DNA of 36,498 bases from Clostridia bacterium (GTDB taxonomy: Bacteria; Bacillota; Clostridia; Oscillospirales; RGIG577): assembly GCA_017513095.1 (NCBI GenBank), contig JAFWDJ010000023.1:1-36498 (forward strand), given 5' to 3'. Of the stretch, positions 8,889-35,876 are shown piece by piece (within the stretch, counting starts at the first letter, position 1; each line of letters starts with the position of its first letter). Under the pieces are notes generated by a model. The model searched no databases. It worked only from the letters and a program-made list of their open reading frames with translations, and was not told the origin of the DNA. The position numbers and the translations under genes are program-made.

Positions 8889-8917
8889 TTGCATAAATCA
8901 TGGCGGCATGATAAACT
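8889..8917 (+). promoter_or_regulatory. Putative promoter of the Fn3/LRR protein gene
   Basis: TTGCAT and TAAACT with a 17-base spacer, immediately after the preceding terminator and about 57 bases before the ATG at 8974. Confidence 0.4.
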
Positions 8918-8973
8918 TTATCTTAATAATAGCGCACAAACAAAGGAAAAAGCACACGGAAAGGACGGTTTTT

Positions 8974-11742: not shown

Positions 11743-11754
11743 CCCCCAACACAA

Positions 11755-11790
11755 AAAGCCCCCGCGGTTATACCGCGGGGGCTTTAACTT
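11755..11790. terminator. Bidirectional terminator between convergent genes
   Basis: AAAGCCCCCGCGG-ttata-CCGCGGGGGCTTT, a 13-bp stem with T-runs outward on both strands (TTTAACTTT forward, TTTTTGTG reverse). It serves the Fn3/LRR gene and the minus-strand gene ending at 11810. Confidence 0.9.
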
Positions 11791-11809
11791 TCACATGATC
11801 CAAACAGAG

Positions 11810-12079
11810 CTACTCATCGCGGGAAACTTCCTTAAGCATCCCTTCTCTTTTCTCCATCTCCACTATATTTATGATCCAGCCGGCGTATTTTAAGGCGTTG
11901 TCCTCGTCGTCGCTGCCGCGCGCGTCGGAGAACTTGTTGTAAATATTTACGACCTCGTTTACCAAAAAAAGATACTCATACACCGACTCGTCCGCCACGG
12001 TCGACGACGCAAGCGTTTTAAGCGCCTCGTCGACGCGCCGCTGCGCGGCGAGGATATTATTCACTCTGTCCATCATCAT
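11810..12079 (-). CDS. Unknown 89-aa protein at the end of the synthetase operon
   Basis: A short, acidic, helical protein with no recognisable motif, signal peptide or membrane span. It begins 33 bases after the thrS stop on the same strand, so it is probably the last gene of the hisS-aspS-thrS transcript. Three consecutive ATG codons open it; AAGGA at 12087-12083 is best spaced for the second (12076) or third (12073), so the first one or two Met may not be used. The bidirectional terminator at 11755-11790 closes the operon. A role in translation is only suggested by position. Confidence 0.7.
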   Translation of the reverse strand: MMMDRVNNILAAQRRVDEALKTLASSTVADESVYEYLFLVNEVVNIYNKFSDARGSDDEDNALKYAGWIINIVEMEKREGMLKEVSRDE

Positions 12080-19571: not shown

Positions 19572-19619
19572 AAGACCGCCAAAGCTTTCCCCGCACCGAG
19601 GACGGGCAGGTGTTTTTCC

Positions 19620-20237
19620 ATGATATTTTTTCTTGAGATCATCGGCACGATAGCCTTCGCCATATCGGGCGCCGTCGTGGGGATACAAAAAAAGATGGAC
19701 GTATTCGGCGTCACAATACTCGCCATGGCCACGGCCGTCGGCGGCGGAATAATCCGCGACGTAATTCTGAGCGTCACGCCGCCCGCCGCGTTTCGGGCGC
19801 CGGTCTACGCGCTGTCGGCATTCGGCGTGGGCATAGCCGTATTCATAATCGAAGCGGCGCACCTGTTTGAGAACAAGCCGAAAAGCTACGATACCGTGCT
19901 TTTGTGGATGGACTCCATAGGACTCGGCATCTTCACGGTAAGCGGAATGCAGGCCGCAAGCTCCGCCGTTGAAGGCGCGAACGCCTTCCTTTTAGTGTCC
20001 GTCGGAGTGATAACGGGCGTCGGAGGCGGCATCCTTCGCGACGTACTCGCGAAAAGCATACCGTTCATCTTCGTAAAGCACTTCTACGCCACCGCGTCGA
20101 TAATCGGCGCCGTCGTGTGCGTCGTGCTGTGGCGCTTCTGGGACGAGGTACCCTCGATGTTCGTCTCGGCGGGCCTTATAGTCGCGCTTCGCATCATCGC
20201 CGCGCGCTACCGCTGGAAGCTGCCGCGGATTAAGTAG
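19620..20237 (+). CDS. TRIC-type cation channel family protein (UPF0126)
   Basis: A 205-residue membrane protein with about seven transmembrane helices and the duplicated glycine-rich motif of the family, GGGIIRDV near residue 41 and GGGILRDV near 138. Prokaryotic TRIC homologues form trimeric monovalent cation channels; the E. coli relatives are YadS and YicG. Physiological roles in bacteria are poorly defined. It lies 48 bases after the activase and 49 bases before the first dehydratase subunit, so it is part of the operon although the family has no known link to 2-hydroxyacid fermentation. Ribosome site GCAGGTG lies upstream of the ATG. Confidence 0.9.
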   Translation: MIFFLEIIGTIAFAISGAVVGIQKKMDVFGVTILAMATAVGGGIIRDVILSVTPPAAFRAPVYALSAFGVGIAVFIIEAAHLFENKPKSYDTVLLWMDSIGLGIFTVSGMQAASSAVEGANAFLLVSVGVITGVGGGILRDVLAKSIPFIFVKHFYATASIIGAVVCVVLWRFWDEVPSMFVSAGLIVALRIIAARYRWKLPRIK

Positions 20238-20286
20238 GGACAAATTAAAACTCAACATATAAAATAAATATCAGGGAGGTTTTGTA

Positions 20287-21540
20287 ATGAGTGAGCAGCA
20301 AGTAAAAAAGCCGAAGAGGCCTATGTCCAAATCGCTTATCATGGTACGCCAGCAGCTTGCCGACCTTTATACGGAGGCGGGCGAGGCAAAGGCGCGCGGT
20401 GAAAAGATAGGCTGGGCCGCTTCGATATTCCCGCAGGAGATATGCGAAACGCTCGGACTCGTGGTGCTCTATCCCGAGAACCACTCCGCAGGCATAGCGG
20501 CGCGCCATCAGGCGGACCCGTTTTTACAGCGCGCCGAGGGCGAGCTTGAGTACAACAACGACATATGCTCCTATGCGAAGATAAATCTGTCATACATCGA
20601 CACGAGAAATCTCGAAGCGAACAATATGCCGCTGCCGGATTTCATGCTTATCGCGAACAACATCTGCAATCAGGTAACGAAATGGTACGAGAACATCGGC
20701 AAAAGATACAACGTGCCCGTATACATGCTCGATATGTCGTTCAACCATCAGAATTTCGTAACGGATTCGCGCCTCAAGTATATCCGCGCACAGATGGACG
20801 ACATCATCGCTTCTCTTGAGAAGCTTACGGGCAAAAAGTTCGATCAGGACCGCTTCCGCGAGGTAATGGAGATATCCGCCGAGAACAAGGACCTCTGGAT
20901 AAAGGCAAACGAGCTTATGGCAAACAGCCCCGCGCCCTTAAACGGCTTCGAGCTTTTCAACTACATGTCGGCAATGGTATGCTGCCGCGGCAAGCGCTCG
21001 ACGACCGAGATAATGAAGCAGCTCATCGCGGAGATCGAGGAGCACATCGCAAAGGGCGACTCCACCTACCCCGGCGAGCAGAAGTACCGCATATTCTGGG
21101 AGGGCATCGCTTGCTGGCCGCACTTCTCGCATAACTTCAAGGTAATGAAGCGCCTCGGCATGAACATCGTTGCTACCGCATACGTGCGCGCGTGGGCGCT
21201 CGACTACGTTCCCGGCGACCTCGACAGCCTCATAAAGGCGTACACCTTCACGCCGTCGAACAACACGCCGGTAGAGACGCTCGTTGAACGCCGCAGCCGC
21301 GATTTACTCAAATTCAAGTGCGACGGCATGATCTATCACTTAAACAGAAGCTGCAAGGTAATGGCAATGCAGCAGTCCGAGATACAGCGCCGCCTGACGG
21401 AAATGACGGGCATCCCCTACGTATCGTTCGACGGCGACCAGTCCGACTTCAGAAACTACTCCGAGGCGCAGTTCGAAACGCGCATGGAGGCGTTCTGCGA
21501 GATAATGGACCAGCACAAGGCCGTAAGAGACGCCAAATGA
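20287..21540 (+). CDS. 2-hydroxyacyl-CoA dehydratase alpha-type subunit, copy 1
   Basis: A 417-residue iron-sulfur subunit of the HgdA/FldB/HadB family, which with a beta subunit eliminates water from (R)-2-hydroxyacyl-CoA through a ketyl radical. Family sequence is clear: IGWAASIFPQE, YPENHSAGIAARH, ANNICNQVTKWYE, EGIACWPH, YHLNRSCK and VSFDGDQSDFRNYSEAQ. The cysteines in NNIC, IACWP and RSCK sit where cluster ligands are expected. It recalls phenyllactyl-CoA dehydratase FldB more than 2-hydroxyglutaryl-CoA dehydratase, so an aryl- or branched-chain lactate substrate is a reasonable guess. GGGAGG precedes the start. It differs from copy 2 in LIANNIC instead of LCANNIC. No CoA-transferase lies in the window. 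Confidence 0.93.
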   Translation: MSEQQVKKPKRPMSKSLIMVRQQLADLYTEAGEAKARGEKIGWAASIFPQEICETLGLVVLYPENHSAGIAARHQADPFLQRAEGELEYNNDICSYAKINLSYIDTRNLEANNMPLPDFMLIANNICNQVTKWYENIGKRYNVPVYMLDMSFNHQNFVTDSRLKYIRAQMDDIIASLEKLTGKKFDQDRFREVMEISAENKDLWIKANELMANSPAPLNGFELFNYMSAMVCCRGKRSTTEIMKQLIAEIEEHIAKGDSTYPGEQKYRIFWEGIACWPHFSHNFKVMKRLGMNIVATAYVRAWALDYVPGDLDSLIKAYTFTPSNNTPVETLVERRSRDLLKFKCDGMIYHLNRSCKVMAMQQSEIQRRLTEMTGIPYVSFDGDQSDFRNYSEAQFETRMEAFCEIMDQHKAVRDAK

Positions 21541-21573
21541 GAGAATCAACAAAAAATATAAGGAGAATTTGAA

Positions 21574-22839
21574 ATGAGTGAGCAGCAAGTAAAAAAGCCC
21601 AGGCGCCCCATGTCAAAGTCGCTTATAATGGTGCGCCAGCAGCTTGCAGACCTTTATAAGGAGGCGCAGGAGGCAAAGGCCCGCGGAGAGAAGATAGGCT
21701 GGTCGGCCTCCATATTCCCGCAGGAATTATGCGAGACTCTGGGCATCGTGGTAGTTTATCCCGAGAACCATTCCGCAGGCATCGCGGCGCGCCATCAGGC
21801 GGAGCCGTATCTGCAGCGCGCCGAGGGCGAGCAGGAGTACAACAACGACCTCTGCTCATACGCAAAGATAAACCTTGCGTACATCGAGTCGAGAGACCTG
21901 CCCGAGCACAATATGCCCATGCCCGACTTCCTTCTGTGCGCGAACAACATCTGCAATCAGGTAACGAAATGGTACGAGAATTTAAGCCGCAAGTACGACA
22001 TCCCGCTTTTTATGCTCGATATGTCGTTCAATCATCAGAACTTCGTAACGCCCTCGCGCGAGAAGTACATACGCGCCCAGATGGACGATATTATAGAGCA
22101 GCTTGAAAAGCTTACGGGCAAAAAGTTCGACCAGGACCGCTTCCGCGAGATCATGGAGATTTCGACCGAGAACAAGGATCTGTGGATAAAGGCAAACGAG
22201 CTTCTTACGAACATCCCCGCGCCGCTTAACGGCTTCGAGCTTTTCAACTACATGTCGGCAATGGTATGCTGCCGCGGCAGACGCTCCACCACCGAGATAA
22301 TGAAGCAGCTCATCTCGGAAATAGAGGAGCACATAAAGAACGGCACCTCGACGTATCAGGGCGAGCAGAAATACCGCGTTTACTGGGAGGGCATCGCATG
22401 CTGGCCGCACGTTTCGCACAACCTTAAAATAATGAGAAAGCTCGGTATGAACATGGTCGTAACGGCTTACGTGCGCGCATGGGCGCTCGACTACATCCCC
22501 GGCGACCTCGACAGCCTCGCGCGGGCGTACACCTTCAACGCAAGCAACAACACGCCTATTGAGACGTTCGTCGAACGCCGCAGCCGCGACCTTATAAAGT
22601 TCAACTGCGACGGCATGATATACCACTTAAACAGAAGCTGCAAGGTCATGGATATGCAGCAGGCCGAGGTTCAGCGCCAGATACAGGCGAAGACGGGCGT
22701 TCCGTTCGTATCGTTCGACGGCGACCAGTCCGACTTCAGAAATTATTCCGAGGCGCAGTTCGAGACCCGCATGGAGGCTTTTGCGGAACTGATGGATGAA
22801 TTTAAAGCAACGAAGAAAAATAAGGAGGCGCAAAAATAA
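21574..22839 (+). CDS. 2-hydroxyacyl-CoA dehydratase alpha-type subunit, copy 2
   Basis: A 421-residue paralogue of the preceding gene, alignable without gaps until the C-terminal tail; by eye about four in five residues are the same, and the first nine residues are identical. All conserved cysteine motifs are present (LCANNICNQ, CCRGRRS, IACWPH, NRSCK). The extra Cys in LCANNIC resembles the characterised FldB protein. Only 33 bases separate it from copy 1, with AAGGAGA before the ATG, and its stop overlaps the start of the beta subunit by one base (TAATG). That coupling suggests this copy is the regular partner of beta, with copy 1 an alternative subunit giving different substrate range. 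Confidence 0.93.
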   Translation: MSEQQVKKPRRPMSKSLIMVRQQLADLYKEAQEAKARGEKIGWSASIFPQELCETLGIVVVYPENHSAGIAARHQAEPYLQRAEGEQEYNNDLCSYAKINLAYIESRDLPEHNMPMPDFLLCANNICNQVTKWYENLSRKYDIPLFMLDMSFNHQNFVTPSREKYIRAQMDDIIEQLEKLTGKKFDQDRFREIMEISTENKDLWIKANELLTNIPAPLNGFELFNYMSAMVCCRGRRSTTEIMKQLISEIEEHIKNGTSTYQGEQKYRVYWEGIACWPHVSHNLKIMRKLGMNMVVTAYVRAWALDYIPGDLDSLARAYTFNASNNTPIETFVERRSRDLIKFNCDGMIYHLNRSCKVMDMQQAEVQRQIQAKTGVPFVSFDGDQSDFRNYSEAQFETRMEAFAELMDEFKATKKNKEAQK

Positions 22840-23963
22840 TGGCTAATCTTGAAGAAAGACTCAATGAAGTAAAATTAATCGCCAAGGGCCCCAAGGCGCA
22901 GTTCAAAAAATACATAGCGGCAGGCAAAAAGGTAATGGGCTGCTTCCCGATGTACGTTCCCGAGGTAATAGCTCACGCCGCAGGCATGGTACCGATGGGC
23001 ATGTGGGGCGCACAGACGGAGCAGAAGCTCTCGAAGCTCTATCTGCCCGCGTTCGCGTGTCCGCTCATGCAGTCGAATATGGAGCTCGGCCTTCGCGGCA
23101 CTTACGAGGGCATGACGGCCGTTATGATCCCCACGATGTGCGACACCTTCCGCTGCGTTTCGCAGAACTGGAAGTCCGGCGTCAAGATCCCCACGATCTC
23201 GTTCAGCTTCCCGCAGAACAGAAAGCTCGAGGCCTCCGTTGAGTTCCTTGAGACCGAATACAACTATGTAAAGGAACGCATCGAAGAAATCCTCGGCACG
23301 AAGATAACCGACGAGGCGCTTGAAAAGAGCGTTAAAATCTACAACGAGCACGCGAAGCTCATGATGAAGTTCGCGGACCTCGTGCCCGACCATCTCGACG
23401 TTATCACGCCCACCGTTCGCCACTGGGTAATGAAGAGCGCGATGTTCGTTGACAAGACGGAGCACATCGAGATAATGAAGGACATCATCGCAGGCCTCGA
23501 GGCAAGACCCGCATACAACTGGACGGGCAAGCGCGTAGTGCTCACGGGCATCACCGCCGAGCCGGAAAGCTTCCTTCAGATATTCGAGGACAACGGCCTC
23601 GCCGTTGTTGCCGACGACCTCGGCCAGGAAATGCGCCAGTACCGCACGCTCATCCCCGACGAGGGCAAGACCGTTATGGAGCGCATCGCGCGTCAGTGGA
23701 ACAAGCGTTTCGCGTGCCCCCTCGCTCACGACGAGAAATTCTCGCGCGGCGACCATCTTTTGGACCTCTGCGCAAAGACGAAGGCAACGGGCGTCGTTGT
23801 CTGCCTTATGAAGTTCTGCGACCCCGAGGAATACGACTTCCCGCTCTACAACAAGCAGCTTCGCGAAGCCGGCATCCCCTCGCTCTCGCTCGACGTAGAC
23901 CAGCAGCCCACGAATTACGACCAGGCCCGCACGAGACTTCAGGCCTTCGCGGAAATTCTGTAA
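22839..23963 (+). CDS. 2-hydroxyacyl-CoA dehydratase beta subunit
   Basis: A 374-residue subunit of the HgdB/FldC/HadC type that completes the dehydratase heterodimer and carries the second [4Fe-4S] cluster. Motifs are KKVMGCFPMYVPEVIAHAAG, MWGAQTE, CDTFRCVSQNWK, SFPQNRKLEA, DDLGQEMRQYRTL and MKFCDPEEYDFP, with cysteines in GCFP, CDTFRC and KFCD as likely cluster ligands. It closely follows FldC in layout and length. The ATG overlaps the stop of alpha copy 2 by one base, with AAGGAGG about ten bases upstream, so it is translationally coupled to it. A strong terminator follows, so the operon ends without acyl-CoA dehydrogenase, Etf or CoA-transferase genes. Confidence 0.94.
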   Translation: MANLEERLNEVKLIAKGPKAQFKKYIAAGKKVMGCFPMYVPEVIAHAAGMVPMGMWGAQTEQKLSKLYLPAFACPLMQSNMELGLRGTYEGMTAVMIPTMCDTFRCVSQNWKSGVKIPTISFSFPQNRKLEASVEFLETEYNYVKERIEEILGTKITDEALEKSVKIYNEHAKLMMKFADLVPDHLDVITPTVRHWVMKSAMFVDKTEHIEIMKDIIAGLEARPAYNWTGKRVVLTGITAEPESFLQIFEDNGLAVVADDLGQEMRQYRTLIPDEGKTVMERIARQWNKRFACPLAHDEKFSRGDHLLDLCAKTKATGVVVCLMKFCDPEEYDFPLYNKQLREAGIPSLSLDVDQQPTNYDQARTRLQAFAEIL

Positions 23964-24150: not shown

Positions 24151-25749
24151 ATGTCGCTGTTAGATGATCTGTTTGGCGGCGGTTCTTCCGAAAAATCCGC
24201 CCCGAAGAATTTTACTCCTCCCTGTCCGCTCTGCTCCGGAGACTGCATGATAGCGCCGGAGGCCTGCAACGAGTGCCTTCCCTATAAGGAAAGGCTCAAC
24301 GACGCGCTTTACAACGTAGAGCATATAGACGAATTTCTCGACCGATACGAGGTCACCGGCGCGGCCGGCTCCGCCGATTCGGGCACGACGAAATGCCCGT
24401 ACTGCGGCGCGCCGAGCGCCGACCCGTTCAAATGCGAATACTGCGGCATGCAGCTTAAGGAGGGCGACGGAAAAATACGCGTCGCGAGCGCGAACGACAT
24501 CCCCGACCCCATCATCGAGGCACGCGACATAGTATACGACCGTCACGCCGAAATAGTATCAAAATACGGCGGAGCAACGTCCTCCGACGCCGCTCCCACG
24601 GGCGGAAGCCTTCTTTCCATGCTGCTCGGTCTCTTCACCGCCGAGGACGAGTCCTCACCCGAGGGCCTCGGCACGCGCATGAGCAAGGAGGAGATGACCG
24701 AGGCGGCAAAGCTCTACGGCGTTTCACTCTCAACCTACATAAACGGCCTCGACAACGGAAAATACTTAACGCTCGAACGCCGCAGGCAATACGAAAAGGC
24801 AAGACAGGCCGAGGGCAGCCGTCCCTCCGGCGCAGAGGAGGACCTCTTCTCCGGCATGGGCATGGGCACAGGCTCCGCCGCGGGAATGCTGATGGGCAGT
24901 CTTATGGGCGGCTCAGGCGCCCCCGGCGGTCAGCAGATGTCCGGCTTCGACGTGGCGCAGCAGATGTTCGGCCAGAGCGCGGCTCAGCAGATGTTCGGCA
25001 TGGGCGGCGCACGTCCCGTCTATCCGCAGGGTCAGCGTCCTCAGGGCTATCCTCAGGGATACCCGCAGGGTCAGCGTCCTCAGGGATACCCGCAGGGTCA
25101 GCGTCCTCAGGGTCAGCGTCCGCCGCATCCCGGCGCGCCGTATCCGGGCGGCCCGCGCCCCGGTCAGGGAATGCCCCCGAGGCCGAATCAGGCGGGCGGC
25201 ATGGGCTTCGGTCAGCCGCCGCGTCCCGGTCAGGCGGCCGCGAATGCCGCTCATAACATGCAGCAGCGGCCCACTCAGGCTGTCCCGAAGCCGACACAGA
25301 GCGCCGCGAGACCCACTCAGGCATCGACGAGCGCATCCCAGGGCATACCGCGCCCCACTCAGGCGGCACAGCGTCCGACTCAGGCAAGCCCCGGCGCACA
25401 GAGACCGACTCAGCCCGGCCCCGGCGCACAGAGACCGACTCAGCCCGGCCCCGGCATGCAGCGCCCCACTCAGGCAAGCCCCGGCGCACAGAGACCTACT
25501 CAGCCCGGCCCCGGCATGCAGCGCCCCACTCAGCCCGGCCCCGGCATGCAGCGTCCGACTCAGCCCGGCCCCGGCGCACAGAGACCGACTCAGCCCGGCC
25601 CCGGCATGCAGCGTCCCACTCAGGCAAGCCCCGGCGCACAGAGACCCACTCAGCCCGGCGCGCAGCGTCCCGGAGCGTCGAATCCGCAGAAGCCCGGCGC
25701 GGGCGGCCCTCAGAAGCCCTCGGGCGGCGGCCTCTTCGGGAAAAAATAA
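24151..25749 (+). CDS. Zinc-ribbon protein with long Pro/Gln/Thr repeat tail, unknown function
   Basis: A 532-residue protein that I cannot assign. Residues 25-42 hold five cysteines (CPLC, C32, CNEC) and residues 82-98 form a classic zinc ribbon CPYC-x9-CEYC. A helical, acidic segment (about 110-230) ends in LTLERRRQYEKARQAEG. A Gly/Met-rich linker (MGMGTGSAAGMLMGSLMGG) and QQMFGQSAAQQMFG follow. From about residue 290 the chain is low complexity: PQGQRPQGYPQGY units, then QRPTQPGPG/QRPTQASPG units to residue 504, and a basic GGGLFGKK end. There is no signal peptide, so it is probably cytoplasmic, with a disordered tail. AAGGAGA precedes the ATG. The next gene begins 48 bases later with its own ribosome site, so co-transcription is likely. 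Confidence 0.85.
   Translation: MSLLDDLFGGGSSEKSAPKNFTPPCPLCSGDCMIAPEACNECLPYKERLNDALYNVEHIDEFLDRYEVTGAAGSADSGTTKCPYCGAPSADPFKCEYCGMQLKEGDGKIRVASANDIPDPIIEARDIVYDRHAEIVSKYGGATSSDAAPTGGSLLSMLLGLFTAEDESSPEGLGTRMSKEEMTEAAKLYGVSLSTYINGLDNGKYLTLERRRQYEKARQAEGSRPSGAEEDLFSGMGMGTGSAAGMLMGSLMGGSGAPGGQQMSGFDVAQQMFGQSAAQQMFGMGGARPVYPQGQRPQGYPQGYPQGQRPQGYPQGQRPQGQRPPHPGAPYPGGPRPGQGMPPRPNQAGGMGFGQPPRPGQAAANAAHNMQQRPTQAVPKPTQSAARPTQASTSASQGIPRPTQAAQRPTQASPGAQRPTQPGPGAQRPTQPGPGMQRPTQASPGAQRPTQPGPGMQRPTQPGPGMQRPTQPGPGAQRPTQPGPGMQRPTQASPGAQRPTQPGAQRPGASNPQKPGAGGPQKPSGGGLFGKK
25258..25660 (+). repeat. 27-30-bp imperfect tandem repeats encoding QRPTQ units
   Basis: In-frame DNA repeats built on CAGCGCCCACTCAG plus GCAAGCCCCGGC or CCCGGCCCCGGC segments; units from about 25375 onward are nearly identical. 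They encode the disordered PTQ tail and are prone to slippage. There are no unique spacers, so this is not a CRISPR array. Confidence 0.9.
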
Positions 25750-25797: not shown

Positions 25798-28700
25798 ATG
25801 AAAAAGCGGGTACTTTCACTTATCATGGCGCTTGCATTCTGTCTTACGCTGCTGCCCGCCGCAATGGCCGCGGACGACGTCGCTCCGGCGGACCCTCCGG
25901 CGGTATCGGCTTCGCCGGACACGCAGACCGCGTCGGATACGGACAACCCCTCCGGCACGGATAATACATCGAACACGGATAATCCGTCGAACACGGATAA
26001 CACATCCGACACGGATAACCCGCCGAATACGGACAACTCATCCGACACGGATAACGCGTCGGACACGAACAACACATCCGACACGGATAACGCGTCGGAC
26101 ACGAATAACACATCCGATACGGACAATCCGTCGGATACGGATAACACATCCGACACGGACAATACATCGAACACGGATAACTCATCCGACACGGATAACT
26201 CATCCGATACTGATAATCCGTCGGATACGGATAACACATCCGACACGGATAACGCGTCGGACACGAACAACACATCCGATACGGACAACTCATCCGACAC
26301 GAATAACCCGTCGGATACCGATAATCCGTCGGATACGGACACATCCGACGGCACCGACACCGACGACGCGCAGCCGCCCGAGAACACGGACGACGAGGAC
26401 GAAAACACGGCCATGCTCGCGGAAAGCGGTACGATCATCTGGTGGACTCAGTACGTATACGGCGTCCCCGTTCCCGTTGACGGCGAGGCGGCCGCGGCGG
26501 ACACGGCTTCGGTCGCTGTCGACTCCGGCTATAACGACTGCTGCACCGTCACGTCTTATTACACGCACGGCGACGGCGCCGTCGTTACACTGGACGAGGG
26601 AGATATCTTCGAGGGCGGCGAGCAGTACACCGTGCACGCGATACTTACCCCTCTGCCCGGATATATATTTGAAGAAGGCGATTATCCGAGCGTAGTTATA
26701 AACGGCTACACGGCCGACAGCGTCGAACCGCTTTCGGACGGCACCCTTGATGCAGCGTATACCTTCCCCGCCGCGGACGAGACGGTCTGGGGCTGGATCG
26801 GCGACCCGAACGGCGATATCACCGACTCCTACTGGGAGATAGACCCCTCGACGGGTGAGCTTACTCTGTACGGAAAAGTCTCCTCCAACACCAACACCAT
26901 GTATATCCACTATCGCGAGGCGGACGGCATGAACATCCGCGCGCCTTGGGCGCTCTATTCCGACGAGATCACGAGCGTCAAGGTCGACGGGTATATAAGA
27001 AAGCTTAACGGCAATATGTTCCGCGGCCTTAAAAACGTCACCTCCGCGTACTTTTACGGCGATATTGAGTTTAACGGCGACGTCTTCTATAACTGTCCGA
27101 AGCTGAGCCGGGTATTCTTCGCGGGAGACGTCGTATCGAACTCTGGCCGCGCCTTCAGCAGGACGGGCCTCGAACGGGTGTCCTTCACAAACGACGTTAC
27201 GATAAACGCCGAGATGTTCGACTCATGCGACGAGCTTACCAAAGTCTATTTCGGCGGTACGACGGTGCTCGGCAGCGACGGAAGCGGCGGTAAACAGATC
27301 TTCCCCTATTCCGGCGTTGAAGAGATAGTCTTCGCCGGCCCGACAACGCTTTATAAAAACTCGCTGGGCTTTACGCAGCATCTTTCAAGCGTCGTCTTCG
27401 AAGGCGACGTGACGATAGGCTCACGGGGCTTTTCAAGCTCGACTGCGCGCCCAAGTCCGCTTACGCGCCTCGAATTCAACGCGGACGTAACGCTGGCAGA
27501 GGACGCGTTCGATAATCTCGGCACGAATACTCTTAAGGCGGTCGTATTCAAACGAAACGGCCCGTGCTATAACTTCGCCGTCAATATAAAACGCTTAAGC
27601 CCGAATATATACATATACGTACCGAATAATGAAAGCTCCCTTGGTTTCTATAAGCAGGTGCTCGTAAACGCCGACGCAAGCGACTACGCGGACCGCGTAT
27701 ATCCCTTAAGCCTTTCGTCGGGCCCCTGCGGCGACAGCGCCGAATGGAGCTACGACGACGCAAGCCAAAGGCTTACGATAACGGGCACGGGCGCGGTAAG
27801 CGCGTCGAACTGGATGAATTACTCCGATGAAATCCGGGAGGTCGTCATATCCGAGGGCATAACCCTCGTATCCTCGAAGGCGTTTACGGCCCTTTCCGCG
27901 CTTGAGACCGTATCGCTTCCGTCAACGCTCGAGCAGATATTCTCAAACGCCTTCGATGGCGACGACGCGCTGACCTCGATAACATATAACGGCGAGCCCG
28001 AGGACTTTTATACGAACGTCACCGTCAACGGCAGCTACAACAGATATTTTTATCCGTTCCTCTTCCTTAATAATATACCCGGCACGAATATCTCGTGGCA
28101 GGTGCTCTCCGGAAACGCTATCCAGTTTAAGGGGACGGGCGTCATTACGGGTTTTACGGGCGACGAGCGCCCGTGGGCCGCGTACGCGGACAAAGCGCCC
28201 ACTATTTCAATAGGCGAGGGCATTACCCAGATCGGCGGCGGCGCCTTCGACGGATTTTCAAACGCAAACACCGTCCGTCTTCCCTCTACTCTTACGTATA
28301 TCGGCCCCAACGCCTTTTTGGGGCTTAAAGAGGGCCCGGGGGCAAACCTCGGTTTCGGCGGCACGATAGCTCAGTGGGACGCGCTGAACATAGCCGAAGG
28401 CAACGAATGGCTCTTCTCTGCCGAGCTGCACGTTGACACCGCCTCGTCTCACCCGGACAGAAGCGGTGTGCTTTCGGACGGCACGACCGAACTTACCTGG
28501 CATATTTACTCCGGCGTTCTTTCAATATACTCGGACAGCGCCGCGTGGGCAATGCCCGACTTCGCGTCTGCCTCCGACGCGCCGTGGTACGCTTTCCGCG
28601 ACGAGATATACATGGTCTACGTTCAGGGAAACGTGACGAAGATAGGAAAGAACGCCTTCCGCGGATGCACGCATTTAAGAGAGGCGAACGTCTCATACTC

Positions 28701-29859
28701 CAACGTCACGACGATAGGCGCGGCGGCCTTCGACGGCTGCACAAGGCTCAATACCGTATCTCTCCCCGAAACGCTCAAAACGATAAAGTCCTACGCCTTT
28801 CGCAACTGTCCCGCGCTGAGCGAGGCCGTATTCGTGGGAACGCAGGCCATGTGGGACCGCGTGAACAAGGGCGACTCGAACGAGGCGCTTACATCCGTTC
28901 TCACGTGCGATCTCTGGTCGGTCAGCTGGCGCATAGCCGGCGATATTCTGTACGTATTCGAGAACAACACGCTTGACAACTTCGGCGAGGGCTACGCCTC
29001 GGCCTCGGATACGCCGTGGTACAAGTACAGAAACGACATTACGAAGATAGTCATCTGCCCCGACCCCACAGGCCTCTGCACGGACGACGAATTCCCGACT
29101 ATCGGCCGAAACGCCTTTGGCGGCCTTGCGAACGTCACGACCGTGGAGCTCCCCGAAAGCCTTACACTCATCGAGAACGCGGCGTTCTGCGACTGCACGC
29201 TCCTCGAGACCGTCGTGTTCGACGGCTCGGCCGAAGAGTGGGCCAACGTAACTATAGAAAATTACAACGCCCCGATAAATAACGCGCAGCTCGTAACGGC
29301 GGGCGGCGTGACCATAACGGCGCAGCCCGAGGACGCTTACGGCGCCGTGGGCACGACCGTCTCCTTCCACGTCGGCGCGGACGGCAAGGGCTTAACGTAC
29401 AAGTGGCAGTACTCCGCGAACGGCTCATACTGGGCCGACGCGACCAAGTTCGCGGGCTGGGACACCGACACCGTGAGCGCGGGCGTTATCGCGAGCCGAA
29501 ACGGCATGTACTTCAGATGCATCGTAACCGATAAATACGGCAATTCCGAAACAAGCGACCCTGCACAAATGTTCGCCGCCGGCGCATCCATTACGTCACA
29601 GCCCGAAGACGTATACGCCGCCGTGGGAAGCTGCGTTTCCTTCCACGTTGACGCGGACGGCGAGGACTTAACGTATAAGTGGCAGTACTCCGCGAGGGGC
29701 GTATCGTGGGCCGACGCGACCAAATTTACCGGCTGGGATACCGACACAGTCGAAGCCAAGCTCCTCGCAACGCGCGACGGCATGTATTTCAGGTGCATCG
29801 TAACCGATAAATACGGCAATTCCGAGACAAGCGACCCCGCACAAATGTTCATCTCATAA
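25798..29859 (+). CDS. Large secreted SDTDN-repeat, LRR and Ig-like surface protein
   Basis: A 1353-residue precursor with a signal peptide (MKKRVLSLIMALAFCLTLLP, cleavage after AMA near 24). Residues about 50-181 are 22 hexapeptides of the form N(P/T/S/A)S(D/N)TD, an extended acidic stalk comparable in kind to SD-repeat regions of staphylococcal surface proteins. A globular region (about 205-310) and BspA-like LRR_5 blocks with YNGEPEDFY and AQWDALNIAEGN caps run to about 1170. Two Ig-like domains of about 92 residues close the protein, both with QPEDxYxAVG, LTYKWQYSA and GMYFRCIVTDKYGN. No SLH, LPXTG or other anchor is visible. AAAGGAG precedes the ATG by seven bases. A ligand-binding or adhesion role is inferred from the family. 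Confidence 0.92.
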   Translation: MKKRVLSLIMALAFCLTLLPAAMAADDVAPADPPAVSASPDTQTASDTDNPSGTDNTSNTDNPSNTDNTSDTDNPPNTDNSSDTDNASDTNNTSDTDNASDTNNTSDTDNPSDTDNTSDTDNTSNTDNSSDTDNSSDTDNPSDTDNTSDTDNASDTNNTSDTDNSSDTNNPSDTDNPSDTDTSDGTDTDDAQPPENTDDEDENTAMLAESGTIIWWTQYVYGVPVPVDGEAAAADTASVAVDSGYNDCCTVTSYYTHGDGAVVTLDEGDIFEGGEQYTVHAILTPLPGYIFEEGDYPSVVINGYTADSVEPLSDGTLDAAYTFPAADETVWGWIGDPNGDITDSYWEIDPSTGELTLYGKVSSNTNTMYIHYREADGMNIRAPWALYSDEITSVKVDGYIRKLNGNMFRGLKNVTSAYFYGDIEFNGDVFYNCPKLSRVFFAGDVVSNSGRAFSRTGLERVSFTNDVTINAEMFDSCDELTKVYFGGTTVLGSDGSGGKQIFPYSGVEEIVFAGPTTLYKNSLGFTQHLSSVVFEGDVTIGSRGFSSSTARPSPLTRLEFNADVTLAEDAFDNLGTNTLKAVVFKRNGPCYNFAVNIKRLSPNIYIYVPNNESSLGFYKQVLVNADASDYADRVYPLSLSSGPCGDSAEWSYDDASQRLTITGTGAVSASNWMNYSDEIREVVISEGITLVSSKAFTALSALETVSLPSTLEQIFSNAFDGDDALTSITYNGEPEDFYTNVTVNGSYNRYFYPFLFLNNIPGTNISWQVLSGNAIQFKGTGVITGFTGDERPWAAYADKAPTISIGEGITQIGGGAFDGFSNANTVRLPSTLTYIGPNAFLGLKEGPGANLGFGGTIAQWDALNIAEGNEWLFSAELHVDTASSHPDRSGVLSDGTTELTWHIYSGVLSIYSDSAAWAMPDFASASDAPWYAFRDEIYMVYVQGNVTKIGKNAFRGCTHLREANVSYSNVTTIGAAAFDGCTRLNTVSLPETLKTIKSYAFRNCPALSEAVFVGTQAMWDRVNKGDSNEALTSVLTCDLWSVSWRIAGDILYVFENNTLDNFGEGYASASDTPWYKYRNDITKIVICPDPTGLCTDDEFPTIGRNAFGGLANVTTVELPESLTLIENAAFCDCTLLETVVFDGSAEEWANVTIENYNAPINNAQLVTAGGVTITAQPEDAYGAVGTTVSFHVGADGKGLTYKWQYSANGSYWADATKFAGWDTDTVSAGVIASRNGMYFRCIVTDKYGNSETSDPAQMFAAGASITSQPEDVYAAVGSCVSFHVDADGEDLTYKWQYSARGVSWADATKFTGWDTDTVEAKLLATRDGMYFRCIVTDKYGNSETSDPAQMFIS
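25945..26340 (+). repeat. 18-bp tandem repeats encoding the SDTDN stalk
   Basis: Twenty-two in-frame 18-bp units such as ACATCCGACACGGATAAC, varying mostly at the second residue (Pro, Thr, Ser, Ala) and in the Asp/Asn choice. Because the period is a multiple of three, open frames also appear on the other strand, which explains a spurious minus-strand ORF here. Confidence 0.92.
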
Positions 29860-29871
29860 CCCAACTCCCGC

Positions 29872-29908
29872 ACGGCGCGGCCGGGACTTCTCCCGCCGCG
29901 CCGTTTTT
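29872..29908 (+). terminator. Terminator of the SDTDN/LRR protein gene
   Basis: ACGGCGCGG and CCGCGCCGT form a 9-bp stem, continued by CGGGA/TCCCG inside, and are followed by TTTTTA. It begins 13 bases after the stop codon. Confidence 0.9.
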
Positions 29909-29991
29909 ATTCCCCGGGGCTGTTAACTTTTACAATATTGTGCTAAAATAAAAACGAACGCACACGGCGATACGAAGGGCAGGTGGATTCC

Positions 29992-31107
29992 ATGAAATAC
30001 ACGCGCCGTCTTTTCGGGCTTGGGAACATATACGACACGAAAGCGAGCGACGAGCTTTTCGCGCTCGCAATGCGCGAGAACGCGCGCTTCCAATACGACA
30101 ACTGCGCCGATTACAGGCGCATACTCGACGAATTCTCGTTCTCGCCCGATATGATACGCGGCACGGACGACCTTGCGCGCCTGCCGTTTCTGCCGACGCT
30201 CTATTTTAAGCACCACGACCTTTTCAGCCTTCCCGACAGCCGGATGCTGATACGCGCGACGTCGTCGGGCACGAGCGGCGCCATGTCGAACGTCGGCTTT
30301 GATTTAAAGACTCTCGCCTTCGGCGCGCGCATGGTAATAAACGTGGGACGGTATCATAAGCTCTGGTCGCCCGTGCCCACGAATTATATAATCTTCGGCT
30401 ACCAACCGACGAAAACCAATAAGACCGCCGTAAGCAAAACGGCGCTCGGCTTTACCTTCTTTGCTCCCGCGAAAAGCCGCACCTTCGCGCTCGAAATAAC
30501 GAAGAACGGCTACGAGCTCTCATGGGAGCGCGTCACAGACGCGCTGAAGCTCGCCTCGCGCTCACGCTTTCCGCTTCGCACGATAGGCTTCCCCGCGTAC
30601 ACCTACTTTCTTCTTCGCGACCTAAAGGCGCGCGGAGTAACATACAAAATGCCGCCCGGCAGCATGGTGACTTTGGGCGGCGGATGGAAGCAGTTCTACG
30701 CCGAGCAGCCCGACAAAAAGGAGTTCTACGCGCTCGTGCGCGACGTACTCGGCATAGACGAGGATCATGTCATCGAATTTTTCGGCGCGGTCGAGCATCC
30801 GATACTCTACACCGACTGCCGCTTCCATCACTTCCACATACCCGTTTACAGCAGGGTGATAATACGCGACCCCGACGACTTCTCGCCCGTCGAATGCGGG
30901 CGCGCGGGCCTTATAAACCTGCTCACTCCGATGATGCAGAGCGGCCCGCTCTTAAGCGTTATGACGGACGACCTCGGCATTCTTCACGACGAGGGATGTC
31001 CCTGCGGCGCGCCGTCGCCGTGGCTTGAAATAATCGGGCGCGTGGGTATTTCGGACGTAATGACGTGCGCCGCGGGCGCGCAGGAATATTTAAAGGAGCA
31101 GTCATGA
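29992..31107 (+). CDS. luxE: LuxE-like acyl-protein synthetase
   Basis: A 371-residue member of the LuxE family, which activates a carboxylic acid with ATP and passes the acyl group to a cysteine and on to the partner reductase LuxC. The ATP-phosphate loop ATSSGTSGAMSN near residue 85 is clear, as are FPAYTYFLL, VTLGGGWK, FFGAVEHP and a C-terminal CPCGAPSPWLEI segment. In luminous bacteria LuxE and LuxC supply fatty aldehyde to luciferase, but no luciferase or LuxD is here, so the aldehyde must serve another purpose such as lipid or glycan modification. Start at ATG 29992 because GCAGGTGG is just upstream; a GTG at 29983 is inside that site. Its stop overlaps the luxC start (ATGA). Confidence 0.88.
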   Translation: MKYTRRLFGLGNIYDTKASDELFALAMRENARFQYDNCADYRRILDEFSFSPDMIRGTDDLARLPFLPTLYFKHHDLFSLPDSRMLIRATSSGTSGAMSNVGFDLKTLAFGARMVINVGRYHKLWSPVPTNYIIFGYQPTKTNKTAVSKTALGFTFFAPAKSRTFALEITKNGYELSWERVTDALKLASRSRFPLRTIGFPAYTYFLLRDLKARGVTYKMPPGSMVTLGGGWKQFYAEQPDKKEFYALVRDVLGIDEDHVIEFFGAVEHPILYTDCRFHHFHIPVYSRVIIRDPDDFSPVECGRAGLINLLTPMMQSGPLLSVMTDDLGILHDEGCPCGAPSPWLEIIGRVGISDVMTCAAGAQEYLKEQS

Positions 31108-32387
31108 TTCTATACAGAGGAAAGCTTTACGACAACAGCCGCCAAAGCGAGCTTATCGCCTCACTTCGGGACGACCTTTACGCACCCCTGCGGTGCGGCG
31201 GGACGCTTTCGCCGCAAACGGTGATAAACGCCTGCGACAGACTCATGCGGCGAGTCCTTGACGGCGAGTTCGACTCCGTGATAAAGCCGTTTCTTAATGC
31301 ATTCAACGTAAGCGAGGCGCAGTTTAACGATATGACGGCGCTCTTTTCAAAAGAGGGCCTCGAGTACAAATGCGCCGTCGAGCTCTGCGACGGCGAGAAG
31401 GTCATCGACGGGCGCATAATCCGCAAAAGATACCCGCTCGGCGCGCTTTTGCACATCGCGGCCGGAAACGTGGACGCGCTGCCCGCGTACAGCGTCATCG
31501 AGGGGCTTCTTTCGGGCAATATAAACGTACTTAAGCTCCCGATGGGCGATTCGGGCCTCTCGGTGCTCCTTCTTTACGAGCTTATAAAGGAGGAACCCGC
31601 ACTTTCGGATTATATCTACGTCTTCGACGTGCCCTCGACGGAGACGGCGACGCTGAAAGCACTTGCCGACCTCTGCGACGGCGTAGTCGTATGGGGCGGC
31701 GACGCGGCGGTAAAGGCCGCGCGCACGATGGCTGACGTCGATACGAAGATAATCGCATGGGGGCACAAGCTCTCGTTTGCCTACGCCGAGCCCGACGCCT
31801 CCGACGCGGAGCTTTATGCTCTCGCTAAGTCTATATGCGACACGAATCAGCTTCTCTGCTCGTCGTGTCAGGGCATTTTCGTTGATACCGACTCAAAGGA
31901 GACGCAGCGCGCCTTCGCGCGGCGCTTCTTTGAAATCCTTAAGGCGGCGAACGAAAACTCGCGTCCCGCCGATTACGGCATGAGGGCGAAGAACGCGATA
32001 AACCTCTACAACGAACGCCTCGAACGTCACGCCACGGGCTCCGAAATCTTAAAAGAGGGCGCCGTGAGCGTCATAATAGCCGAGGACGAGACGCTTTCGC
32101 TTTCGTATCTTTACCGCAACGTGTGGGTAAAGCGCCTGCCGCGCGAACGGCTCTATACGCTCAAAAAATACAAGGGCTGCCTTCAGACGGCCGCCGTGCT
32201 CACTCGGGACCGCGAAACGCGTGAAGAGATAGCGAGAACGCTCGCGCTTATCGGCGTGGTGCGCATAACGTCGGGCGGCAATATGTCGCGCACGGTGCGC
32301 GGCGAGGCGCACGACGGCACGTACGCGCTGCGCGAATACAGCCGCATCGTCGAAACCGAGCTGTTCCCGCCTTCAAAATCTTCGTAA
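31104..32387 (+). CDS. luxC: LuxC-like acyl-CoA/acyl-enzyme reductase
   Basis: A 427-residue protein of the LuxC family in the aldehyde dehydrogenase fold, reducing a thioester-bound acyl group to an aldehyde with NADPH. Recognisable segments: GALLHIAAGNVDALPAYSVIEGLLSGN, NVLKLPMGDSG, VVWGGDAAVKAARTM, and LLCSSCQGIFV holding the likely nucleophile Cys255 (Cys252 is close by). GGNMSRTVRGEAHDGTYAL closes the catalytic core. The ATG overlaps the luxE stop by four bases and has AAGGAG five bases upstream, so the two subunits are made together. An upstream in-frame start at 31065 lies within luxE without a ribosome site and is not favoured. I see no clear terminator before the promoter of the next gene. 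Confidence 0.9.
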   Translation: MILYRGKLYDNSRQSELIASLRDDLYAPLRCGGTLSPQTVINACDRLMRRVLDGEFDSVIKPFLNAFNVSEAQFNDMTALFSKEGLEYKCAVELCDGEKVIDGRIIRKRYPLGALLHIAAGNVDALPAYSVIEGLLSGNINVLKLPMGDSGLSVLLLYELIKEEPALSDYIYVFDVPSTETATLKALADLCDGVVVWGGDAAVKAARTMADVDTKIIAWGHKLSFAYAEPDASDAELYALAKSICDTNQLLCSSCQGIFVDTDSKETQRAFARRFFEILKAANENSRPADYGMRAKNAINLYNERLERHATGSEILKEGAVSVIIAEDETLSLSYLYRNVWVKRLPRERLYTLKKYKGCLQTAAVLTRDRETREEIARTLALIGVVRITSGGNMSRTVRGEAHDGTYALREYSRIVETELFPPSKSS

Positions 32388-32404: not shown

Positions 32405-32432
32405 TTGAAAAAAACGTTTGACGTGGTATACT
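32405..32432 (+). promoter_or_regulatory. Sigma-A promoter of the SLH protein gene
   Basis: TTGAAA and TATACT separated by 16 bases, 49 bases before the ATG at 32481, with AAGGAGG in the leader. Identical hexamers and spacing to the promoter at 24058-24085. Confidence 0.65.
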
Positions 32433-32480: not shown

Positions 32481-35400
32481 ATGCACAAAAGGTCATCAAA
32501 GCTTCTGGCCGTCATACTTGCGCTTCTCTTTGCCGTAAGCATGTTCTCGGCGGCCATGGCATATTCCACAGATGATTCGTTTAATCTGGAGGAATATGAT
32601 TATTCCGACGACTTTTACGACACCTATGAGGACGTATACGTAATGTTCATGCCCGGATATGTCGAAATGACGCAGGGCGAGACGCTTTCCGTTGACGGCA
32701 TCGTCTCGGGCGATGACGGCACCGTATCGTATACGTGGAGAAGCGACAACAGCTCCGTAGTCTCCGTATCCGGCAGGGGTGCGACCGCCACGCTAAGGGC
32801 CATCGGCCCCGGCACGGCAAGCGTATCGCTTACCGCGACGAGAAAGAGCGACGGCGACTACGACGTTGACGTTCTCACCGTTACCGTAACGGGCAAATCG
32901 ACCCCCGTTAGGGCTACGGGCGGCGACTCCGTCGTAATGAAGGCCGGCGAAAGCAAGGCTATCTCCGTAAGGCCCTCGGGCGGCAGCGGACACTACGTTT
33001 ACGAATGGGAGGCCGGCGGCAGCGCGGGCGTAAATGACGTAAACAGCCCGAGCAACACGCTGTACGGCCGCTACGCCGGCGCGGGCAGCGTAATATGCAC
33101 CGTATCCGACGAGAACGATCCTACCAACTACGCGGTCGTTACCTGGGACGTTACCGTTTCGGACAATGCAAAGCCTTTAACCGTAAAGCTCGATAAGACG
33201 AGATTCAATCTCGAGGCGGGCAGCGCGACTACCCTCACCGCGACCGCGAGCGGCGGCAGCGGCAACTACGATTATTATTGGGGCAACGACAACAAGGCGC
33301 TTGTAAACATTTCGGGCGACGGCGATTACGTCACCGTTGAGGCGGCTCCCACCATAATGGCGGGCTCTACCACGGCGCAGGTAAGCGTGACCGCAGTCGA
33401 CCTTGACACTAACAAGACGAGTGAAACGGTCTACTGTATATTCACCGTAACGGGCAAGGAAGCGAGCTACAGCACAACAGGCTCCGCTACCGTCGGCGTG
33501 AATTACTCGATGTCCGACATAGCGCTCGATATCTCCCGCGCGTTCTCGAATCATTTCTCAAGAACGCTCAGCGCATCCGCGAGCATCCGTTTTGACACGC
33601 CGAGCGACAGCGTGGGCTCCCTCAGATTAAGGGACGGCACGATAGTACGCTCCGGCGCAAGCTACACCTACTCGCAGCTTCAGATGATGAACTTCACGGC
33701 CGCATCGAGCGGTACGTTCCTTACCGGCTACACGCTCACGGACGGCTCCGCGGTAATGTCGGGTACGATCTCGATAAAATGCTCCGGCGGCTCCTCCGTA
33801 AGGGACGCGTACTTAAGCGCCTCGAGCCTCGGCCTTGAAAGATATTCGAGCAGATTCTTAAGCATCACCGTAACGCCCTCGAATGCGAATTACACCGTAT
33901 CGTGGTCCACGAGCAACTCGAACGTTGCCAAGATCACGGGCAGCGGCAATAACGTAACCGTAGTTTCTCAGGGCAACACCGGCAGATCAACGATAACAGC
34001 AACTGTAAGAGACGCGAACGGCGCGGTACTGACGCGCAGCTGCGAGGTCACCGTAAGCAGCTCGGGCGGCGGCGGAGGCGGCGGCTCCTCCATGCGCACG
34101 TATAATCCCAGCCTTACCGTAACGATGGGCTCCGATTACTACGGCACGAGCATTTCCGACAGCATACAGAAGCAGTGGCGCAGCGTATTCGGCTCGATAC
34201 TCCCCGAAAGCGCACAGATGGGCTTCAATTCGAACGGCACTACGAGATACGGCGAGCTTCGCCTCTACAACGGCAGAAGCATGCGCTACACCGACTCGTA
34301 CACGTTCGGCGATTTCATTGATATGTACTTTGAGCCCTACGCTGTCGGCACGTACTCCGTCCCGTATTACATCAACTACGACGGCTGCACGATGAGCGGT
34401 ACGATGAGCATCCAGATCAAGGGCTCCAGCCTCTCCGTTTCGATTGACCCGAGCTCCGTAACGATGTCCACGTACAACAACCGCAATATTTATGTAAACG
34501 TATCGCCCTCGAACGCGTACTACCGCGTATCGTGGAGTTCGAGCAACTCGAATCTCGTTTCCGTATCGGGCAGCGGCAGCTCCGCGAAAATTACGACATA
34601 CGGCAAGACGGGTACCGCCACGGTAACGGCGACCGTTACCGACAACAACGGCAACAAGATATCGCGCAGCTGCTCCGTAAAGGTCAGCGGCAGCTCCAAC
34701 TCGTCGCTTTACGACCCCACGGTATACACGACTCTCGGCGTGAACTACACCGGCACCGGCACCTCCGACGCAATGTACGCGCAGTTCAAGAATGTATACG
34801 GCGTTGAGCTTAACCGCAGCAGCGCGCGCATAAGCTTCTCGAATACGGGCAACAACAACGTAGGCGTTATGAGGCTGTCGAACGGCACCGCGATACGCGC
34901 GAATACATCGTATACGTTCAGCGAATATATCGCGATGTACACCGAGCCGATAGCAACGGGCACGTTCTCCATCCCGTACACGCTCACCTACAACAATAAG
35001 ACGCTCTCCGGAACGGTAAGCGTAGTTATAAGCGAAGGCTCCGTAAACTGCACGCTCAACCTGCCGAATAGTCAGGCGTACCTCTTCTCCGATCCGCTTT
35101 CCGGCTCGAACGGCGCGGCGCTTCTCGCAAACGCGATACACAACGCCCTGGGCACGTCGTGGAACGACATACGCTTCTCGACGTACAGCGACAGCACGGG
35201 TACGCTCTATCTCAACAGCGGCCTTGCGGCTTTAAGCCAGAGCGCGAAGATAACTTCAAGCGATATGAACAACCTCTATTTCGTACCGCAGCGTCCCGGC
35301 ACGTTCAGCGCGAACTTCTCGGTATACAATAAGAGCGGCACGAAGATATCGAGCGGTACTCTCCGCATAGTCGTTCCCTCCGGCGGCTCGTCCGGCTTCA

Positions 35401-35876
35401 CCGACGTAAGCCCCAACGCCTACTATGCCGAGGCGGTAACTTGGGCCGTTGAAAATCAGATAACGACGGGTACGTCCGAGACCACCTTCTCACCGGCAAG
35501 CACCGTGACCCGCGCTCAGGCGGTAACGTTCCTGTGGCGCGCACACGGCAGACCCGAGGCAGGCACGATGAACCCCTTCAACGACGTGGCTCCCGATGAG
35601 TATTATACTCAGGCAGTGCTCTGGGCGGTTAAGCAGGGCATCACTACCGGCACGTCCGATACGACGTTCTCGCCCGACGCAACGCTCACTCAGGATCAGA
35701 TGCTCACGTTCCTCTGCCGCGCGAACGGCGACTTCGCGGGCGGCGAGAGCTGGTCCGAGCAGGCCATGACCTGGGGCCAGCATAACGGCCTCTTCGACGG
35801 CATGCCCTCTCAGGTAAGCGCGAAGAGCCCCTGCCCGCGCTGCGACGTGGTATATTATCTTTGGAAAATGCGTTAA
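32481..35876 (+). CDS. SLH-anchored Ig-like (Big_2) surface protein with a repeated unnamed module
   Basis: A 1131-residue precursor with a signal peptide (cleavage after AMA near residue 27). Residues about 50-330 are three Ig-like/Big_2 domains (VSYTWRSDNSSVVSVSG, GGSGHYVYEWEAGG, GGSGNYDYYWGND). Then a module of about 105 residues occurs four times (DNA near 33468, 34101, 34710 and 35046), each with a helix followed by GxLRLxxG and a YTF..MYFxP..GTFSIPY segment; Big_2-like domains with WSxSNSN separate the first three. From about 972 there are S-layer homology domains: FTDVSPNAYYAEAVTWAV, FNDVAPDEYYTQAVLWAV, and a third, weaker one ending at the C-terminus. SLH domains bind pyruvylated secondary wall polymer, so this protein is held on the wall and may be a major S-layer component. 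AAGGAGG precedes the start. Confidence 0.93.
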   Translation: MHKRSSKLLAVILALLFAVSMFSAAMAYSTDDSFNLEEYDYSDDFYDTYEDVYVMFMPGYVEMTQGETLSVDGIVSGDDGTVSYTWRSDNSSVVSVSGRGATATLRAIGPGTASVSLTATRKSDGDYDVDVLTVTVTGKSTPVRATGGDSVVMKAGESKAISVRPSGGSGHYVYEWEAGGSAGVNDVNSPSNTLYGRYAGAGSVICTVSDENDPTNYAVVTWDVTVSDNAKPLTVKLDKTRFNLEAGSATTLTATASGGSGNYDYYWGNDNKALVNISGDGDYVTVEAAPTIMAGSTTAQVSVTAVDLDTNKTSETVYCIFTVTGKEASYSTTGSATVGVNYSMSDIALDISRAFSNHFSRTLSASASIRFDTPSDSVGSLRLRDGTIVRSGASYTYSQLQMMNFTAASSGTFLTGYTLTDGSAVMSGTISIKCSGGSSVRDAYLSASSLGLERYSSRFLSITVTPSNANYTVSWSTSNSNVAKITGSGNNVTVVSQGNTGRSTITATVRDANGAVLTRSCEVTVSSSGGGGGGGSSMRTYNPSLTVTMGSDYYGTSISDSIQKQWRSVFGSILPESAQMGFNSNGTTRYGELRLYNGRSMRYTDSYTFGDFIDMYFEPYAVGTYSVPYYINYDGCTMSGTMSIQIKGSSLSVSIDPSSVTMSTYNNRNIYVNVSPSNAYYRVSWSSSNSNLVSVSGSGSSAKITTYGKTGTATVTATVTDNNGNKISRSCSVKVSGSSNSSLYDPTVYTTLGVNYTGTGTSDAMYAQFKNVYGVELNRSSARISFSNTGNNNVGVMRLSNGTAIRANTSYTFSEYIAMYTEPIATGTFSIPYTLTYNNKTLSGTVSVVISEGSVNCTLNLPNSQAYLFSDPLSGSNGAALLANAIHNALGTSWNDIRFSTYSDSTGTLYLNSGLAALSQSAKITSSDMNNLYFVPQRPGTFSANFSVYNKSGTKISSGTLRIVVPSGGSSGFTDVSPNAYYAEAVTWAVENQITTGTSETTFSPASTVTRAQAVTFLWRAHGRPEAGTMNPFNDVAPDEYYTQAVLWAVKQGITTGTSDTTFSPDATLTQDQMLTFLCRANGDFAGGESWSEQAMTWGQHNGLFDGMPSQVSAKSPCPRCDVVYYLWKMR

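Follow-up and report, generated by a model that had tools for sequence, protein, structure and literature searches.

A two-gene LuxE-LuxC unit in a gut-type Clostridia bacterium, predicted to reduce acids to aldehydes outside luminescence

The stretch of DNA analyzed here (the window, 36,498 nucleotides) comprises positions 1 to 36,498 of the forward strand of contig JAFWDJ010000023.1, from a Clostridia bacterium of the order Oscillospirales (GenBank assembly GCA_017513095.1). It harbors a gene for a LuxE-type acyl-protein synthetase immediately followed by one for a LuxC-type acyl reductase. The pair is likely to form a self-contained ATP- and NAD(P)H-dependent acid-to-aldehyde reductase in which LuxE hands an acyl group to LuxC, the users of the aldehyde being encoded elsewhere. 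This reading is supported by the protein families, both conserved cysteines, the predicted folds, the gene coupling and the co-inheritance of the two genes, and the initial annotation, which had proposed such a unit working without the light reaction, is supported to that extent. The source genome (1.99 Mb in 45 contigs, 97.7% complete) belongs to gut-type Clostridia and contains one LuxE and one LuxC; an anaerobic lifestyle is presumed from its Clostridia relatives.

The luxE gene (29992..31107, forward strand, 371 amino acids) starts with an ATG at 29992 preceded by an AGGTGG ribosome-binding site and stops with a TGA at 31105-31107. The luxC gene (31104..32387, forward strand, 427 amino acids) starts with the ATG at 31104-31106, has an AAGGAG ribosome-binding site upstream and stops at 32385-32387. 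Stop and start thus share the 4-nt overlap ATGA (31104..31107), from which translational coupling is predicted. A mechanical list of open reading frames (ORFs) gives earlier starts, a GTG at 29983 in the luxE frame and a GTG at 31065 in the luxC frame. LuxE matched Pfam PF04443 with 137.4 bits (cut-off 24.9; E 7.7e-40) and LuxC matched PF05893 with 178.1 bits (cut-off 21; E 3.4e-52), scores far above the cut-offs, and the coupled pair first annotated at 29992-32387 was correctly placed. Both genes are under purifying selection: the ratio of nonsynonymous to synonymous substitution rates against two genus mates was 0.09-0.11 for luxE and 0.11-0.19 for luxC.

The residues that carry the acyl group in the luminous enzymes are present in both proteins (LuxE numbers count the start Met; the alignment and the LuxE model, which lack it, run one lower). 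The tail cysteine C359 of LuxE is a Cys in 40 of 41 aligned rows, the single miss being a gap taken as the contig-cut locus L034, and no exception to it was seen in a set of 11 divergent rows, with proteins from Streptomyces, a Salmonella plasmid and Chloroflexota among them. It aligned with C364 of chain 7xc6_E, the residue published as being acylated in Photobacterium phosphoreum LuxE (PMC8301110). The LuxC cysteine C252 is a Cys in 42/42 aligned rows and aligned with C285 of 7xc6_A; the active site of a Lux reductase has been published as Cys286, in the numbering of another protein (PMC8301110). The loss of a catalytic cysteine, raised at the outset as a possible objection, was therefore not observed, C359 and C252 both being present. 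When profiles of the clade were searched, the best matches were the LuxE and LuxC of the P. phosphoreum fatty acid reductase complex, PDB 7xc6 (E 1.5e-43 and 8.1e-32).

The predicted model of LuxC (mean predicted local distance difference test score, pLDDT, 92.1, with no stretch below 50) had 7xc6_A as its best Foldseek match among solved structures, with a template-modelling score of 0.72. The AlphaFold2 model of LuxE (mean pLDDT 87.1) has a confident core and mostly falls below 50 over the last 19 residues; such a tail would fit a mobile arm without proving one. Among the matches listed in the structure searches, its fold is closest to the PaaK CoA-ligases, with 2y27 as the best structural match (Z 28.8, root mean square deviation 3.0 Å over 317 residues). 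Chain 7xc6_E was not among the matches listed in the LuxE structure searches, which has no bearing on the LuxE fold.

The reaction steps can be proposed from work on the luminous LuxE and LuxC. LuxE would activate a free acid with ATP to the acyl-AMP, then move the acyl group onto C359 of its mobile C-terminal tail, and the tail would pass it to C252 of LuxC. LuxC would reduce the thioester with NAD(P)H and release the aldehyde, which would be consumed by enzymes encoded away from luxEC. The physical contact between the two proteins and the identity of the substrate are likewise extrapolated.

To follow the pair in other organisms, 84,980 species genomes were scanned. Of the 49 loci recovered, 45 are clear relatives (49-86% identity), and the other four (L050-L053) are partial hits and were dropped. 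Both genes were called in 37 of the 45 loci (L005-L049); two loci (L026, L034) are cut by contig ends, and in six (L024, L025, L028, L030, L036, L049) LuxE or both genes were lost to overlapping ORFs even though LuxE was found by tblastn. The set of 62 genomes with LuxEC used below represents at most 61 distinct ones, since G572 and L007 seem to come from one genome. LuxE precedes LuxC on the same strand in 42/42 pairs compared. With the LuxC starts picked by a motif, the genes overlap by 4 nt in 26 of these pairs and by 14 nt in 2, are separated by gaps of at most 20 nt in 10 and by longer gaps in 4. The trees of the two proteins, quick trees in which long branches were flagged, had 29 of 39 splits in common, and their distances were strongly correlated (Mantel r 0.89, a value reached in 0 of 999 permutations); the rate of evolution is about 1.5 times higher for LuxC than for LuxE. 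The unit is inherited independently of its neighbors and probably has its own transcript.

Such two-gene units of close relatives occur in Clostridia, in some Bacilli and on one Chloroflexota plasmid, whose LuxE is 48% identical. Among 295 genomes drawn from the order, a near full-length LuxE was present in 12, the remaining hits among the 137 matching genomes covering part of the profile. The draw from the class (391 genomes) gave LuxE matches of at least 37% identity in 13 genomes, the source genome included. In the draw from the phylum (398 genomes) there were 6 LuxE matches at E ≤1e-20, namely the source genome and five others at 27-31% identity. Because the distribution is so scattered, horizontal movement of a self-sufficient LuxEC unit is suggested by these sequence comparisons. 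Carriage as phage or plasmid cargo was considered as well, and on this evidence LuxEC is not a phage gene: only three such cases were met, the Chloroflexota plasmid, a contig from IMG/VR and a faecal record. In the IMG/VR contig (L094, 1431-10200) a Mu-like transposable phage is apparently inserted in the LuxE gene, both parts of which are visible. The faecal record is an unannotated scaffold labelled 'Bacteriophage sp.' (MT835565.1; L154, 10001-11083) with a LuxE gene at 53% identity, and it is phage only by label.

Several observations weigh against the proposed acyl relay or leave it less defined. The luminous equivalog models of NCBIfam were widely missed, by LuxE with 81.5 bits against a cut-off of 550 (NF052244) and by LuxC with 49.6 bits against 750 (NF052251), so that the substrate and acceptor of these predicted enzymes need not match those of the luminous ones. 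The fold of the modelled LuxE lies nearest to the PaaK CoA-ligases, with which release of the acyl group to CoA or another thiol would be compatible. A scan for consensus promoters found none upstream of luxE, and the product of LuxEC is not revealed by any neighboring gene.

The comparison with PaaK and with the luminous proteins goes beyond the acyl-carrying cysteines. Similar to the luminous LuxE-LuxC of 7xc6, the window pair has both families, both acyl-transfer cysteines and the LuxC fold; unlike it, the pair falls short of the equivalog cut-offs, comes from a genome with no luciferase match and has a LuxE with a set of Cys and His residues of which 7xc6_E retains only the His. This set, C276, H282, C336 and C338, is invariant in 43 LuxE rows, including the distant L086 and L088. 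All 11 divergent rows keep C276, H282 and C338, and all but one keep C336. A profile alignment showed the same C...H...CxCG pattern in the clade LuxE and in the PaaK of PDB 9s3l. In PaaK enzymes this set binds zinc. LuxE differs from PaaK in that the C-terminal AMP-binding domain PF14535 is absent: PF04443 was the only match, and the protein ends 21 residues past the GR motif in a short tail that bears the acceptor cysteine. Read most simply, the set is an ancient metal site that most LuxE proteins have retained and that the one luminous LuxE compared has lost.

As to the acid itself, a medium or long aliphatic (fatty) acid is our tentative guess. A second possibility, which we hold to be doubtful though the least so of the other uses considered, is that the product is an aldehyde of the short, branched or aromatic kind, or the alcohol formed from it by a dehydrogenase, serving as a small released metabolite or precursor. 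The closest LuxE folds bind phenylacetate, 2-hydroxyisobutyrate or aminohydroxybenzoate, but the substrate is not fixed by similarity of fold. A related arrangement, in which LuxE stands beside a LuxC fused to a PaaK-like domain, sometimes with a free PaaK, a GNAT protein and an exporter, looks biosynthetic; it is, however, a separate type and was not seen beside pairs of the window clade.

This LuxC-PaaK type was found in five loci, with the AMP-binding fusion 800-880 amino acids long (L139, 7853-15761; L140, 89-3688; L141, 6475-11889; L151, 7977-12854; L152, 4185-11626), and its hosts are Clostridia, a Streptomyces plasmid and a Salmonella plasmid. A free PaaK accompanies it in L139, L151 and L152, a GNAT protein in L139, L141 and L152, and an exporter of the MATE or MFS family in L139 and L152. 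One Clostridia genome and the Streptomyces plasmid combine the free PaaK, the GNAT protein and the exporter, and the Salmonella plasmid has LuxE, the fusion and a free PaaK. The arrangement looks like an uncharacterized biosynthetic cluster. In another type LuxE and LuxC are fused in a single chain: L084 (7729-10047) encodes one of 772 amino acids within a cluster of NeuB, thiamine pyrophosphate (TPP) enzyme, SDR and AMP-ligase genes. Frames of 780 and 785 amino acids with a LuxE match occur in L142 and L143. Neither of these related types is that of the window, but both point to LuxE and LuxC acting jointly as one module.

That the pair supplies fatty aldehyde to plasmalogen or other ether-lipid metabolism, beside PlsA or by recycling free fatty acids, was among the uses first proposed; it seems rather unlikely to us. 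A lysoplasmalogenase reaction frees a fatty aldehyde. In one relative (L090 of genome G107, 8893-12049) LuxE, LuxC and a gene of the YhhN family overlap by 4 nt each, and a mycobacterial YhhN protein has been described as having lysoplasmalogenase activity (PMC9052158). YhhN was nevertheless found in only 6 of the 62 LuxEC genomes (56 without a match) and in none of the window's genus; L090 and L031 are the only loci where it adjoins LuxEC, and the sister copy of YhhN in L031 is broken. According to a review (PMC9702350), long-chain aldehydes, not alcohols, were used for bacterial plasmalogens, but the same review has the plasmalogens of anaerobes arise by direct reduction of the diacyl lipid.

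The source genome does encode a PlsA-like protein of 1428 amino acids with BadF-type and DUF2229 domains; the PlsA-like label is our reading, as no HGD-D domain was named by Pfam in the protein. Within the order draw, a DUF2229 PlsA-like protein was present in 11 of the 12 genomes whose LuxE is near full-length, against 190 of the 283 others (p=0.11). Across the LuxEC genomes it was present in 35 of 45, against 201 of the 295 order genomes (Fisher p=0.23), and 10 show none, the completeness of these genomes not being given. The background of 295 includes clade members, and dropping six changes nothing. A full-length LuxE is lacking in most of the order genomes that encode a PlsA-like protein (of the same 295, 201 have the PlsA-like protein and 12 the LuxE). 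The association is thus not significant, and a tie between LuxEC and PlsA is neither shown nor excluded by the counts, which leaves plasmalogen use unproven. We regard as improbable the more elaborate form of this idea, a free-standing and horizontally moving fatty-aldehyde generator of strict anaerobes that would turn free fatty acids into aldehydes for a second ether or vinyl-ether lipid route or for an aldehyde signal, with the LuxE-LuxC-YhhN triplet as its visible trace.

Modification of cell-surface glycans or proteins by the aldehyde had also been put forward. The islands for flagellin glycosylation in Aeromonas and Enterobacteriaceae are described as containing LuxE and LuxC (PMC7874193, PMC4875605), and a distant homologue in the window's own order has LuxE/LuxC within a cluster of NeuB, transketolase and SDR genes. 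These proteins resemble the window pair in being side by side or fused, with no luciferase genes among those reported or scanned; moreover the tail Cys and the Cys/His set of the window LuxE also occur in L086 and L088, two distant rows that the tree places with the NeuB-cluster fusion. The distant homologues compared differ from the window pair in a LuxE identity of about 23-29%, and the NeuB-type fusion, unlike the window pair, sits with NeuB, an AMP ligase, a thioesterase, TPP enzymes and an SDR. No acyl carrier protein, ketoreductase or NeuB was found among the 25 relatives' flanking genes scanned, where the sole glycosyltransferase is a peptidoglycan transglycosylase in L027. A sugar-synthesis cluster was thus seen with the distant NeuB type and not beside the pair in the relatives' flanking genes scanned. 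Predicted signal peptides were commoner in the genes directly flanking luxEC (23 of 65, against 66 of 347 others; p=0.005), by a crude predictor with relatedness uncorrected; the same test without the window gave 21 of 63 (p=0.018). The near-identical L010, L039 and L042, the repeats L003 and L004, and ORFs shorter than 110 amino acids were left out. This excess is a lead only, and we give surface modification a low chance.

The light reaction is rejected, as the source genome had 0 matches to the luciferase family Bac_luciferase PF00296, for which a control was matched in 10 of 14 genomes, so the luciferase part of the annotation of the pair as lacking both luciferase and LuxD is confirmed, and no luxAB was found elsewhere in the genome. 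LuxD (PF02273) was matched in 0 of the 62 LuxEC genomes, the source genome included, in a search where no positive control was matched, so that its absence is not shown.

The preferred reading of LuxEC as an independent acid-to-aldehyde unit agrees with what surrounds it. In the clustering of 649 ORFs from 49 loci (a set that still held L003 and L004, repeats of L054 and L005, and in which many loci have short flanks) LuxE and LuxC were the sole widely recurring genes, and the cluster after them reached 8 loci. No widely recurring neighbor was found in 12 further loci from whole genomes at 37% identity or above (L129-L140), and the 25 relatives' flanking genes scanned are a mixed, unrelated lot or have no match. 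The comparison of neighborhoods across Clostridia, which had been recommended at the start, thus returned the pair as a unit with no widely conserved neighbor. In the window, the neighbors encode surface proteins, a zinc-ribbon-like protein and HGD-D subunits, and none of them is a glycan or fatty-acid-type biosynthetic gene (NeuB, acyl carrier protein, ketoreductase or sugar glycosyltransferase).

Two surface-protein genes on the forward strand enclose the unit without belonging to it: a BspA-type leucine-rich-repeat protein upstream (25798..29859, PF13306) and an SLH/Big_2 protein downstream (32481..35876, PF00395 and PF02368). The annotated position between two genes for secreted proteins is true of the window and only partly kept in the genus, as an SLH-type homologue also follows luxC in L005 and not in G001 (L054), and the BspA-like gene is at this position in neither of these genus mates; the upstream gene of L005 differs. 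Downstream of the BspA-like gene, a hairpin followed by a U-run (29872..29904, forward strand) is probably its intrinsic terminator (fold of 29866-29920: -32.6 kcal/mol, z -3.62); it is not in the output of the consensus scan. An operon with the BspA-like gene is unlikely, given this strong hairpin between them and the absence of the gene from this place in L054 and L005. A promoter-like site 3' of luxC (32405..32432, forward strand, 10 of 12 positions) is a consensus match only and would probably serve the SLH gene. The BspA-like protein has a long N-terminal tract of Asp/Asn/Thr/Ser repeats (25798-26500).

Further upstream lies the gene for the zinc-ribbon-like protein (24151-25749, a weak match to PF13248), whose tail is a long stretch of repeats rich in Pro, Gln and Gly. 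The interval 18771-23963 holds 2-hydroxyacyl-CoA dehydratase genes, a set in which one subunit is doubled and which G001 shares: an activator, a membrane protein with a glycine-transporter domain, two similar HGD-D subunits and a third HGD-D subunit. In G001, luxEC comes after the zinc-ribbon-like and dehydratase genes as in the window, with no BspA-like gene between, so that the zinc-ribbon homologue is directly upstream of luxE, and with a different downstream gene. A link between LuxEC and the dehydratase genes was considered and set aside: they stand beside luxEC in G001 and in none of the other clustered loci, many of which have short flanks, and we read this as genus synteny.

LuxE-LuxC outside luminescence is already in print, in the flagellin glycan islands. 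The stand-alone, widely scattered clostridial pair is a variant of it, and no paper about this variant was found in the open-licence literature, judged by titles and the beginnings of abstracts among the matches listed. Given the PaaK-type Cys/His set retained in the LuxE of this clade, it is the luminous LuxE that may be derived. Enzymes familiar from luminous marine bacteria persist as a two-gene unit in gut-type Clostridia; naming the acid would reveal a source of aldehydes in gut and rumen and could shed light on the role of LuxE and LuxC before luminescence.

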